Assembly (NCBI GenBank): GCA_029563075.1 | Contig: JAKQTN010000067.1 | Span: forward strand, 55,775 to 119,774 | Direction of reading: 5' to 3' | From: Pseudomonadota bacterium | GTDB lineage: Bacteria; Pseudomonadota; Gammaproteobacteria; Burkholderiales; Methylophilaceae | Length of the DNA stretch: 64,000 nt | Part shown: positions 48,379 to 57,116 of the stretch, in pieces | Layout of the letters: each line of letters opens with the position of its first letter | Position numbering within the stretch: the first letter of the stretch is position 1 | The notes under the pieces: model-generated | The model's database searches: none | The model's input: only the letters and a program-made list of their open reading frames with translations | What the model was told of the DNA's origin: nothing | Program-made: the position numbers and the translations under genes

Positions 48379-49676
48379 ACATTCGACGTTTATCTACACA
48401 AGACAAGCAATTTGACGCCGATTTAAAAGCGTTGCTGGCTTTTGAGACCGCTCAGGACGATAGCGTTGATGCGGTTGTAGCCAATATCTTAAAAGACGTG
48501 AAGGCGCGCGGTGATGCAGCGGTGCTGGAATACACCAACCGTTTTGACAAGACCAACGCAAGTAGTCTGCCAGAGCTAGAAATTGGCAAAGCCGAGTTAG
48601 CCGCTGCATTGAATGGCCTGCCAGCCAATCAGCGCGAGGCTTTGCAGGCCGCCGCTGACCGTGTAAAAAGCTATCATGAGAAACAGCTGATTCAGTCATG
48701 GAGTTACACTGAAGCAGATGGTACGCTGCTTGGCCAGCAGGTAACTTCACTTGACCGCGTGGGTTTATACGTCCCTGGCGGCAAAGCAGCATATCCTTCC
48801 AGCGTGTTGATGAACGCAATTCCTGCGAAGGTGGCGGGTGTCCAAGAGTTGATTATGGTTGTACCAACACCGAATGGCGAGAAAAACGCATTGGTGTTGG
48901 CGGCTGCAGCGATTGCGGGCGTTGACCGCGTGTTTTGCATTGGCGGTGCGCAAGCAGTAGGCGCGCTGGCTTACGGAACTGAAACCGTACCGCAGGTGGA
49001 TAAGATCGTCGGGCCTGGCAACGCCTATGTAGCCGCCGCCAAACGCCGAGTGTTCGGTGTGGTAGGCATCGATATGGTGGCCGGGCCTTCCGAGATTTTA
49101 GTGATTTGCGATGGCAAGACCAATCCGGATTGGATTGCCATGGATTTGTTCAGCCAGGCAGAACATGACGAACTTGCGCAAGCGATTTTACTCAGTCCAG
49201 ACGCAGCCTTTCTGGAAACAGTGGCAGCGAGCATGCAAAAGTTGGTACAGGAAATGCCGCGCAAGGGCATCATCAACACCTCAATTACGAACCGTGGTGC
49301 GCTTATCTTGGTAAAAGACTTGAATGAAGCAATCGAAATAAGCAACTACATTGCGCCAGAACACTTGGAGTTATCAGTCGAGAATCCGCTGGAAATGAGC
49401 AAAAAGATCAAACATGCCGGTGCCATTTTTATGGGCCGCGATACCTGTGAGGCGCTTGGCGACTATTGCGCAGGGCCAAACCATGTATTGCCGACCTCGC
49501 GCACGGCGCGTTTTAGCTCACCTTTGGGCGTGTACGATTTCCAGAAACGCTCCAGCCTGATCATGGTGTCATCAGCGGGTGCGCAAAAGTTAGGCAAAAT
49601 TGCATCAACCTTGGCGCATGGCGAAGGTTTGCAGGCGCACGCATGTAGCGCAGAATATCGGCTAAAAAATGAGTAA
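48375..49676 (+). CDS. hisD: Histidinol dehydrogenase
   Basis: [39 protein letters not shown]. Confidence 0.97.
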
Positions 49677-50733
49677 GTTTTGGAGTGACGTAGTTCGTGG
49701 GTTGACGCCCTATGTGCCAGGCGAGCAGCCCAAGCTCAATAATCTAATCAAGCTCAACACCAATGAAAATCCTTATGGGCCAAGCCCGAAGGTAATCGCG
49801 GCTTTGCAGGCAGAGGCCGCAGATACCTTGCGTCTTTACCCGGATCCGAATTCTGATAAGCTCAAAGCAGCAATCAGCGAATATCATGGCTTGCAGGCTA
49901 ATCAGGTGTTTGTCGGCAACGGATCGGACGAGGTATTGGCACATGCGTTTCAGGCGCTGCTCAAACACGGCAGGCCGCTTCTGTTTCCAGATATTACCTA
50001 CAGTTTTTATCCGGTGTATTGCGGACTGTATGACATTGAATTTGAGGCGGTTCCGCTCAATGTCAATTTCGAAATCGAGGTGAAGGAATATGACAGGCCC
50101 AATGGAGGCATTATTTTTCCGAATCCTAATGCGCCAACAGGTGTTCCACTGGCACTGGCAGAAATTGAGAAATTGCTGAAAGTTAATACCGAGTCAGTCG
50201 TGGTGATTGATGAGGCATATGTGGATTTCGGTACGGAATCCGCTGTTAACCTCATCAATACCTATCCTAATTTATTGGTCGTACAAACGCTGTCGAAGGC
50301 GCGCTCACTCGCAGGCTTGCGCGTAGGCTATGCGCTCGGCCATCAGGATTTAATCGAAGCGCTGATTCGCGTAAAAGATAGTTTTAATTCTTACCCGATC
50401 GATCGGTTTGCCGAGGCTGGTGCTGTTGCCGCCATGCAAGACAAAGCTTATTTTGAGGAGACCTGTAAAAAAGTCATCGCCACGCGTAATGTTTTGGTGC
50501 GTGACCTGCAGGCATTAGATTTCGAGGTATTGCCTTCAGGTGCCAATTTTATTTTCGCGAAACATAAAACGAGAGCAGGTAGTGAGTTAGCTGCAAAATT
50601 ACGAGAGCAAAGCATCGTGGTGCGGCATTTTAAGAATCCCACGCGTATAGCAAATTATTTGCGCATCACCATCGGCACTGATACGCAATCTAAACAGCTT
50701 GTTGCGGCGCTAAATGTAATACTAAAGCGGTAA
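49669..50733 (+). CDS. hisC: Histidinol-phosphate aminotransferase
   Basis: [27 protein letters not shown]. Confidence 0.96.
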
Positions 50734-50922: not shown

Positions 50923-51756
50923 ATGGCACAAACCCAAATGGCACTAGATTCACTAGATTTTGACGCAACCGTCGCGCTGGCAACCAAAGTTGCTCCGCAC
51001 GTAGACATTCTGGAAATCGGTACGCCTTGCATCAAGCACAATGGTATCGAGCTACTCAAAACATTGCGCGCAAAATTCCCAAACAATAAAATCTTAGTTG
51101 ATTTGAAAACAATGGACGCTGGTTTTTACGAAGCTGAGCCGTTCTACAAGGCCGGTGCAGATATCTGCACAGTGCTGGGCACAGCTGACATCGGCACAAT
51201 CAAAGGCGTGATTGATGTTGCCAACAAATACGGCAAAATGGCGCAAGTTGACTTGATCAACGTAGCTGACAAAAAAGCACGTACGTTGGAAGTGGCTAAA
51301 TTAGGCGCACACATCATTGGCGTGCACACTGGCTTGGACCAACAGGCCGCAGGTCAAACACCATTTGCTGACTTGGCAATGGTAACTGGTTTGAACACAG
51401 GCGCTAAAGTTTCAGTAGCGGGCGGTGTTAAAGCTGCAACTGTGCGTCAAGTGGTAGATGCAGGTGCTGATATTGTGGTTGCCGGCGCAGCGATCTACGG
51501 CGCGGCAGATCCAGCAGCTTCGGCAGCTGAAATCACTGGTTTGGCACGCGGTAGCAATGCAAGTGCTGGCGGTATGGGAAAATGGTTGCCATGGGTATTA
51601 ATCGCAGGTGCGGTGTTGCTTGGTTTGTATCTGCTTAAAGGTGGTAAGTCAGGTGATGAAGCGCCTGTTGCAGGGCCAGCAGCGGTAGAGCAAGTTGCTC
51701 CAGCAGCAACTGAGGCTGCGCCAGCAGAAGCAGCTCCAGCAGAAGCAGCTAAATAA
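50923..51756 (+). CDS. hps: 3-hexulose-6-phosphate synthase with C-terminal TM helix and Ala/Pro/Glu-rich tail
   Basis: Hps/OMPDC fold core (EIGTPCIKHNG, ILVDLKTMDAG, HTGLDQQ, VAGGV, VVAGAAIYGAADP) to ~aa 208; TM aa 221-239; tail to aa 277; strong GGAGGA RBS. Confidence 0.93.
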   Translation: MAQTQMALDSLDFDATVALATKVAPHVDILEIGTPCIKHNGIELLKTLRAKFPNNKILVDLKTMDAGFYEAEPFYKAGADICTVLGTADIGTIKGVIDVANKYGKMAQVDLINVADKKARTLEVAKLGAHIIGVHTGLDQQAAGQTPFADLAMVTGLNTGAKVSVAGGVKAATVRQVVDAGADIVVAGAAIYGAADPAASAAEITGLARGSNASAGGMGKWLPWVLIAGAVLLGLYLLKGGKSGDEAPVAGPAAVEQVAPAATEAAPAEAAPAEAAK

Positions 51757-51770
51757 CTGTCGTTTGATAT

Positions 51771-51799
51771 AAAAAGCCGACTTGAAAGTCGGCTTTTTT
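51771..51799 (+). terminator. Rho-independent terminator after hps
   Basis: AAAAAGCCGACTT-gaa-AGTCGGCTTTTTT. Confidence 0.92.
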
Positions 51800-51896: not shown

Positions 51897-52484
51897 ATGC
51901 GCAAAGCAGAAGTTACCCGCAACACTTTGGAAACGCAAATTTCGGTTTCCATCAATATTGATGGTTCAGGTCAATCGAAATTCAATACGGGCTTGGGCTT
52001 TCTGGATCACATGCTTGATCAAGTGGCGCGTCATGGCATGATGGACATTAACGTGCAGGCCAAAGGCGATCTGCACATTGATGCGCATCACACCGTAGAA
52101 GACATCGGCATTACCCTGGGCCAGGCTTTTACTAAAGCGATAGGCGACAAAAAAGGCATTAACCGTTACGGCCACGCCTATGTGCCGCTGGATGAGGCTT
52201 TGAGCCGTGTGGTGCTTGATTTGTCCGGTCGGCCAGGTCTGGAATTTAATTGCGAATTCACGCGTGCGGCGATTGGTGAGTTTGATGTCGATCTGGTGCA
52301 CGAGTTCTTTCAAGGCTTTGTGAATCATGCCAATGTGACGCTGCATATTGATAACCTCAAGGGCCAAAACGCACATCACCAATCCGAGACGATATTCAAA
52401 GCCTTTGGCCGCGCCTTGCGCATGGCGGTGACTTATGACGAACGCATGTCAGGCATCATGCCGTCTACCAAGGGCAGCTTATAA
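51897..52484 (+). CDS. hisB: Imidazoleglycerol-phosphate dehydratase
   Basis: [27 protein letters not shown]. Confidence 0.97.
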
Positions 52485-55423: not shown

Positions 55424-55758
55424 GTGCTGACTGTATTTTTTGCAAGATTGTTAGCGGCGCAATTCCTGCAAAAAAAATCTATGAGGATGATGATGTCATT
55501 GCATTTAACGACATCAAGCCGATGGCCAAAATACATTTTATGATTGTGCCAAAACTGCATGTGGAAAGCTTGAAGGATTGCGATGTAACACATCAGGCTT
55601 TGCTTGGAAAGATGCTGTTGCTAGTGCCAAAATTAGCGCAAGAACAAGGATTGGCAGGCTTCAAAACCCTTATCAATACTGGCCGAGAGGGTGGACAGGA
55701 AGTGTTTCATTTGCATATACACGTGTTTGGCGGTGGTTTGCCAAGCGCTAATACTTAA
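55420..55758 (+). CDS. HIT family protein (HinT-like)
   Basis: [18 protein letters not shown] histidine triad. Confidence 0.94.
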
Positions 55759-55768
55759 GGAGATTATT

Positions 55769-55978
55769 ATGGGTTCATTCAGTTTATGGCATTGGTTGAT
55801 TGTGCTGTTAATTGTAGTGCTGATATTTGGCACTAAGAAATTGCGCAATATCGGTGGTGATGTGGGTGGCGCGGTGAACGAATTTAAGAAAGCCATGAAG
55901 GACGGGCAAGCCGCGGATGGGGAAGAGAAAACCGGCACGACCATTGAAGGCGAAGTGACTCACAAGACCAAGCAGTAA
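55769..55978 (+). CDS. tatA: Twin-arginine translocase subunit TatA
   Basis: [32 protein letters not shown] track start extended upstream. Confidence 0.93.
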
Positions 55979-56002
55979 AATTCAGTAATATCCTATTATA
56001 AA

Positions 56003-56377
56003 GTGTTTGATGTTTCATTCTCGGAGTTGCTGGTCATTGCGGTTGTCGCACTTTTGGTGATTGGCCCGGAAAAGCTGCCCAAAGTGGCTCGGACGGTGGG
56101 CGCATTCACTGGGCGCATGCAGCGCTACATGGCGCAAATAAAGGAAGAAGTGAATCGCGAGATGCGCTTTGAAGAGCTGCAAAAACTGCAGCAGGAAATC
56201 CAGCAATCCGTCCAAAGCACACAAACCGGCATGAGCGAGCAGGCTGCTGAAATTAAAAACGCCTTAGCCGAAACTGTACAAGCAGCTCAAGCAACTCCTG
56301 TGGCCGCTATAAAGCCTGGCAAGCCCAAGACAGCAAAAACCACAACATCCAAACGCGTCAAAGCCGCAGCAAAGTGA
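56003..56377 (+). CDS. tatB: Twin-arginine translocase subunit TatB
   Basis: MFDVSFSELLVIAVVALLVIGPEKLP; GTG start. Confidence 0.93.
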   Translation: MFDVSFSELLVIAVVALLVIGPEKLPKVARTVGAFTGRMQRYMAQIKEEVNREMRFEELQKLQQEIQQSVQSTQTGMSEQAAEIKNALAETVQAAQATPVAAIKPGKPKTAKTTTSKRVKAAAK

Positions 56378-56384
56378 ATCGCGG

Positions 56385-57116
56385 ATGACACCGACCGAAT
56401 CATTCATTTCTCACCTGATTGAGCTGCGTAATCGCTTGCTGCGAATCGTGCTTGGTTTCGTGCTGGTATTTATCTGCTTATTTCCGTTTGCCAACAAAAT
56501 CTATGCGCTACTGGCTGCACCCATGCTGGCTAAGCTGCCTGCGGGCGGCCAAATGATTGCAACCGCAGTGACCACGCCATTTTTTGTGCCGATGAAGGTC
56601 GCCATGATGACGGCGTTTGTGATTTCATTGCCGCATACTTTGTACCAGATTTGGGCGTTTGTCGCCCCTGGCCTGTATGCGCACGAAAAAAAATTAATGG
56701 TGCCAGTCATTGTTGCCAGCAGCGTTTTATTTTTAACCGGCATGGCATTTGCCTACTTTGCCGTGTTCCCCGTGGTGTTCGGCTTTATTGTAGGTAGCGC
56801 GCCGGCGGGCGTAGCGGTAATGACGGATATTTCACAATATCTCGATTTCGTGATGACGCTGTTTATGGCATTCGGACTGGCTTTTGAGGTGCCGATTGCG
56901 GTGGTGCTGATTGCGCGATTTGGCTGGGTGAGCATTGCGCAATTAAAAGAAGCGCGCGGTTATGTGATTGTGGGCGCATTCGTTTTAGGGGCCATTTTTA
57001 CACCACCCGACATTATTTCGCAGTTTATGCTCGCTGTTCCCTTGTGGCTGCTATATGAGGCAGGGATAATGGTTGCGCAGTTTACGCAATCCAAGCCCAA
57101 TTCGATAAAAGCCTGA
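56385..57116 (+). CDS. tatC: Twin-arginine translocase subunit TatC
   Basis: SFISHLIELRNRLL, six TMs. Confidence 0.95.
   Translation: MTPTESFISHLIELRNRLLRIVLGFVLVFICLFPFANKIYALLAAPMLAKLPAGGQMIATAVTTPFFVPMKVAMMTAFVISLPHTLYQIWAFVAPGLYAHEKKLMVPVIVASSVLFLTGMAFAYFAVFPVVFGFIVGSAPAGVAVMTDISQYLDFVMTLFMAFGLAFEVPIAVVLIARFGWVSIAQLKEARGYVIVGAFVLGAIFTPPDIISQFMLAVPLWLLYEAGIMVAQFTQSKPNSIKA

Follow-up and report, generated by a model that had tools for sequence, protein, structure and literature searches.

The hps gene described here lies on the forward strand of a 64,000-nucleotide stretch of DNA from a member of the Methylophilaceae, referred to below as the window. It is one open frame at positions 50923-51756, as the original prediction had placed it, encoding 277 amino acids from an ATG that follows GGAGG, a ribosome-binding site rated good. 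Its upstream neighbor on the same strand is hisC (49669-50733), named from sequence similarity and operon context, and its downstream neighbor, also on the forward strand, is a hisB of the imidazoleglycerol-phosphate dehydratase type (51897-52484). While this position between hisC and hisB agreed with the gene being inside the his operon, as had been proposed, its transcription probably does not. The gene has its own 189-bp leader after the end of hisC, and it is followed by a Rho-independent terminator at 51771-51798 on the forward strand (AAAAAGCCGACT-TGAA-AGTCGGCTTTTT, with a perfect 12-bp stem). The terminator scan passed over this hairpin, the T run of which sits within the stem. Because it possesses both a leader and a terminator of its own, hps is probably a separate transcription unit within the his cluster. 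Genes resembling tatA, tatB and tatC were observed closely downstream of the cluster (55691-57116).

Hps catalyses the entry step of the RuMP cycle. Amino acids 1-205 of the window protein (50923-51537, forward strand) correspond to the catalytic TIM barrel of this enzyme. The TIGR03128 profile matched amino acids 5-205 over profile positions 2-202 of 205 with 246.2 bits, above the cut-off of 200, and PF00215 matched the core with 134 bits. The nearest solved relatives, by sequence and by fold, were PDB 3ajx and 3f4w; 3ajx matched amino acids 4-205 by sequence with an E value of 1.4e-46, and Foldseek gave TM-scores on the target of 0.92 for 3ajx and 0.92 for 3f4w. Residues D60, K62, D65 and H135 were invariant in an alignment of 46 Hps sequences. 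The protein has the DxKxxD motif and the catalytic histidine that characterise the OMPDC/HUMPS superfamily. Judged by its sequence, the core is that of an intact and complete Hps, in agreement with what had been claimed for it.

Beyond the core, the frame continues on the forward strand through a linker containing Gly and Ser (amino acids 206-220, positions 51538-51582, GLARGSNASAGGMGK), where AlphaFold confidence is low at 213-216, into a predicted transmembrane (TM) helix (amino acids 221-238, positions 51583-51636, WLPWVLIAGAVLLGLYLL). The last segment is an acidic tail rich in Ala, Pro and Glu (amino acids 239-277, positions 51637-51753) that is predicted to be disordered and periplasmic. 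Hydrophobicity was scored over 19-residue stretches on the Wimley-White octanol scale; this scale was used because Kyte-Doolittle values alone discriminate poorly (1.80 for the window protein's own tail and up to 1.98 for cores). The best stretch of the extension, amino acids 220-238, scored -9.4 kcal/mol, as compared to +5.6 for the best stretch of the protein's own core. The AlphaFold2 model showed a helix at 222-239 with moderate confidence (about 74) and disorder beyond it. The helix is kept in 69 relatives with the same type of extension, at octanol scores from -7.6 to -14.1 kcal/mol, while the cores never scored below -0.4. The linker ahead of the hydrophobic stretch is nearly constant in the relatives (14-17 amino acids), and the tail past the best 19-residue stretch ranges from 29 to 111 amino acids. 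The anatomy first read from the window, a Gly/Ser linker followed by a TM helix and an acidic Ala/Pro tail, was borne out in all its parts.

The tail at 51640-51753 is made up of repeated EAAPA-type units, and slippage of such repeats would account for the varying tail length in the relatives. Five TM-type tails from two genera (L011, L012, L044, L052 and L056) end in a common peptide, TDGLVGAAK[DE]A.G, which may be a binding motif. Searches of Pfam and NCBIfam with the tail alone returned nothing meaningful, the LcnG-beta match (E 0.06) being below its cut-off. The rest of the genome was searched for a possible origin of the TM tail, and weak composition matches only were returned, to an Ala/Pro-rich region close to the N-terminus of a putative outer-membrane protein and to the C-terminus of a SecG-like protein.

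The extension was found in 15 of 15 genomes of the genus and in many other genera. A frameshift or assembly artefact, the doubt that had been attached to a tail absent from close homologues, is excluded by this distribution. Across the family, 141 distinct Hps sequences were collected from loci chosen partly by match length: 69 have the TM-type extension, 45 have a short extension and 27 have none. Genes for hisB and/or hisC were present in the fetched flanks of 111 of the 114 tailed Hps and of none of the 27 tail-less ones. An independent check was carried out from the hisB side in 18 genomes, picked mostly for having no known tailed copy in the his cluster. Hps was found beside hisB in three of the 18 and was tailed in all three (one TM, two amphipathic), and hisC directly adjoined hisB in 11, including all five streamlined genomes tested. 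Reading failed at a contig edge or inside the flank in three further genomes, and the last one had no hisB match. No tail-less Hps was seen between hisC and hisB, either among the family sequences or in this check. The tailed gene lies elsewhere in g9, g12 and g19, where hisC and hisB are adjacent, and this rules out that the tail is a property of the his locus. Apparently, the anchored copy either stays or has moved with its anchor in place, or it is missing altogether. The TM form was found in Methylophilus methylotrophus DSM 46235, M. rhizosphaerae, M. aquaticus and Methylotenera versatilis 7, and the amphipathic form in Methylovorus menthalis and M. mays.

The genome that contains the window (2.1 Mb in 82 contigs) encodes one further Hps, of 210 amino acids and without extension (L003, G000 C12:7798-8430). 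Its gene, the second and soluble hps that the original prediction advised looking for, lies between those of transaldolase and hexuloisomerase, with a formaldehyde-activating-enzyme-like gene beyond, in a RuMP/H4MPT cluster. The two proteins belong to the same enzyme family and their cores share 90% identity, but the tail-less one lacks the linker, the TM helix and the tail. According to a paper on Lake Washington Methylophilaceae, these bacteria have two hps copies about 90% identical, one in the histidine cluster and the other in the H4MPT cluster (PMC4109929). The histidine-cluster copy is the same gene in the same location as that of the window; the extension, the anchor and the localisation of the product go unmentioned in the passages on hps found in that paper. 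Most Methylophilaceae keep both a tailed and a tail-less Hps.

The cores of the two copies appear to have been repeatedly made alike. The his cluster of G035 contains a tandem Hps pair (L086, C4:1757106-1761285), one with a TM tail and the other with an amphipathic end. Over 640 bases, starting about 10 bases upstream of the start codon and ending in the last core codons, the two genes are identical; they differ on both sides of this stretch, the divergence beginning where the tails start. Within G030 and G015, the tailed core resembles the tail-less one (94.5% and 92.3%, respectively) more than either resembles its counterpart in any of the other genomes compared. Tailed and tail-less cores were also intermingled in the core tree, in which the two outgroup rows kept were cut too short, so that its root was not used. 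The simplest reading of the shared cores in G035, G015 and G030 is gene conversion or recent duplication. Homogenisation of the cores while the tails stay on one copy is the pattern that would be expected if the tail were selected. A second Hps core lineage, about 65% identical, was also observed in G025, G032 and G019 (L121, L124 and L125, in tandem with an ordinary tail-less hps), and the tailed Hps of the genera of these three genomes belong to it.

The short extension of 45 sequences takes the same place as the TM anchor and consists of an 11-residue end, GLFGW[LIV]KKLFS or close variants. On the interface scale, these 11-mers scored between -2.8 and -4.8 kcal/mol, and no core 11-mer scored below -2.0. 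Their helical moment was modest (z about 1.5 above shuffles) and AlphaFold2 confidence for the helix was low. The corresponding DNA pattern occurred once per genome in 43 genomes and was absent from reversed controls; all inspected loci with it were Hps C-termini, including a contig-edge copy in a genome without an Hps match. A tree built from the HisB and HisC proteins that flank hps showed five changes between TM and amphipathic types, at least three of them across well-supported branches. One side of this midpoint-rooted tree was entirely amphipathic save G035, which has both types, and under that root the family may have started out with the amphipathic end.

The Hps with the short end is reminiscent of MinD and FtsA, the membrane targeting sequences of which are C-terminal amphipathic helices on dimer-forming cytosolic enzymes, as the Hps end may be. 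The MinD of G107, a genome of the same family as the window, ends in GLLQRLFGG and the tailed Hps of some other genera end in GLFGWLKKLFGG. MinD and Hps are different enzymes; the resemblance is functional and short, and homology is not claimed. We know of no nucleotide switch in Hps, unlike MinD. Because Hps is a dimer in known structures, its amphipathic ends would, by analogy, acquire a MinD-like avidity. The MinD helix binds weakly by itself and two copies are needed (PMC6803595).

The charge distribution around the TM helix was compared in the 69 TM forms. Median net charges were +2 ahead of the helix, -1 for the 15 residues directly following it and -9 for the tail as a whole. In all 69 proteins the segment ahead of the helix has a more positive net charge than the entire tail, and in 67 this also holds against those 15 residues. 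As expected from the positive-inside rule, this distribution fits an N-in/C-out topology. The frame of the tailed Hps starts straight at the barrel, and the barrel would be cytosolic because it needs ribulose 5-phosphate as a substrate. Conservation across the family, two alternative anchors, an anchorless paralogue and the N-in/C-out charges all argue for the membrane tether that had been predicted, and we consider anchoring of the his-linked Hps highly probable.

The intact core, the anchor, its conservation, the swapping of anchors and the tail-less paralogue are seen in the sequences themselves, and the membrane localisation in the cell, the topology and the role in formaldehyde interception are inferred. 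In the proposed mechanism, the N-terminal TIM barrel would condense formaldehyde and ribulose 5-phosphate in the cytosol. In the form found in the window, a single N-in/C-out TM helix would hold Hps on the cytosolic side of the cytoplasmic membrane with the acidic tail in the periplasm; for other genera, a short amphipathic helix like that of MinD would lie on the lipid surface. The tail-less paralogue of the RuMP/H4MPT cluster would serve the bulk cytosol. The most likely benefit would be the capture of toxic formaldehyde on its way in from the periplasm, the site of its production by methanol and methylamine dehydrogenases. One PQQ methanol dehydrogenase was found in the window genome. The window protein would then be the membrane-targeted partner in an Hps pair, and we regard its interception of incoming formaldehyde at the membrane as the likelier function, if by a limited measure. 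Because TM and amphipathic anchors interchange while gene conversion would keep the cores alike, selection would act on anchoring and not on the sequence of the anchor. The broader proposal of separate cytosolic and membrane-bound Hps pools, with the his-linked enzyme as a formaldehyde trap at the inner membrane and anchoring itself selected, has in our view an even chance of being correct.

The idea that formaldehyde is captured near a periplasmic methanol dehydrogenase fits the window genome, but such dehydrogenases also accompany Hps of the tail-less type only. PQQ methanol dehydrogenases were present in G027 and G029, relatives with only tail-less Hps, and in G381, another RuMP bacterium with Hps lacking an anchor; the streamlined genera g14 and g16 have methanol dehydrogenase and only tail-less Hps. 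Because g14, g16 and G381 possess the dehydrogenase but not an anchored Hps, periplasmic methanol oxidation does not generally require the anchor; outside the family, the anchor as a general companion of the enzyme is unsupported. The enzyme that follows Hps, hexuloisomerase, is anchorless in the window genome.

These dehydrogenase-containing relatives without an anchor leave some room, perhaps one case in a few, for the anchor having a purpose unrelated to formaldehyde entry, such as membrane-protein assembly through the acidic tail or separation of assimilatory and dissimilatory Hps pools. The tail is long, acidic and present in all TM forms, and the DGLVGAAK peptide shared by five of them in two genera would suit such a purpose. 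However, the amphipathic form ends at its helix, which leaves no tail partner for the family as a whole, and there is no conserved partner gene besides the his neighbors, from which the tailed gene is separated in g9, g12 and g19.

With a second Hps to take the metabolic flux, the his-linked protein could be of low catalytic activity and act at the membrane as a regulator or a formaldehyde sensor. We find this very unlikely since the catalytic positions are invariant and the cores were repeatedly homogenised with the metabolic copy. Slightly less probable still is that the extensions are near-neutral, low-complexity sequences with no role in localisation. The acidic tail is indeed of low complexity and free in length (29-111 amino acids), but the hydrophobic stretch is always kept (-7.6 to -14.1 kcal/mol), the linker length is nearly fixed (14-17 amino acids), and the extensions occur on one paralogue only, survive core homogenisation and are exchanged for another membrane-binding end instead of being lost. 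Bacterial microcompartments are also loaded through short C-terminal amphipathic peptides placed after a Gly/Ser linker, and the GLFGWLKKLFS end has a like build; a role as cargo peptide for a protein compartment is the least probable of these readings. Microcompartment cargo was rejected because the shell protein PF00936 was absent from all seven family genomes searched (six with the amphipathic end and that of the window), and a compartment leaves unexplained the TM helix on the same gene in sister lineages.

Hps-like matches came up in six genomes other than that of the window when 387 genomes of the class were searched, and the sole addition among those in which the C-terminus was read was an Hpi fusion. 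Hps-Hpi fusions (HxlAB; e.g., PDB 9lj9) resemble the window protein in having a C-terminal addition to the Hps core, but what is added is the next enzyme and not an anchor. No description of a membrane-anchored Hps was found in a full-text search of open-licence papers. The his-cluster paralogue itself has already been published (PMC4109929), and it is the conserved localisation module that has apparently been overlooked. Artificial Mdh-Hps-Phi fusions have been made to channel formaldehyde in synthetic methylotrophy (PMC8879981), a field in which Hps is a workhorse. A natural Hps anchored throughout a family would reveal the solution to this problem in methylotrophs that oxidise methanol in the periplasm. 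It would also point to a function for the second hps gene, noted long ago, and provide two anchor modules ready for use. The question is directly testable since Methylophilus methylotrophus (TM form) and Methylovorus (amphipathic form) are cultivated.

Ferenci, Strom and Quayle reportedly found in 1974 that the Hps activity of Methylococcus capsulatus was associated with the particulate fraction. The Hps copies read from G475, a Methylococcus-like genome, are tail-less or fused to Hpi, and none has a TM tail. Three equal-scoring copies in this genome (L187, L193 and L195, at C1:3513213, 3518402 and 3523591) follow one another at intervals of exactly 5189 bp; this tandem triplication resembles the duplication of the RuMP locus known from Methylococcus (PMC8527097).
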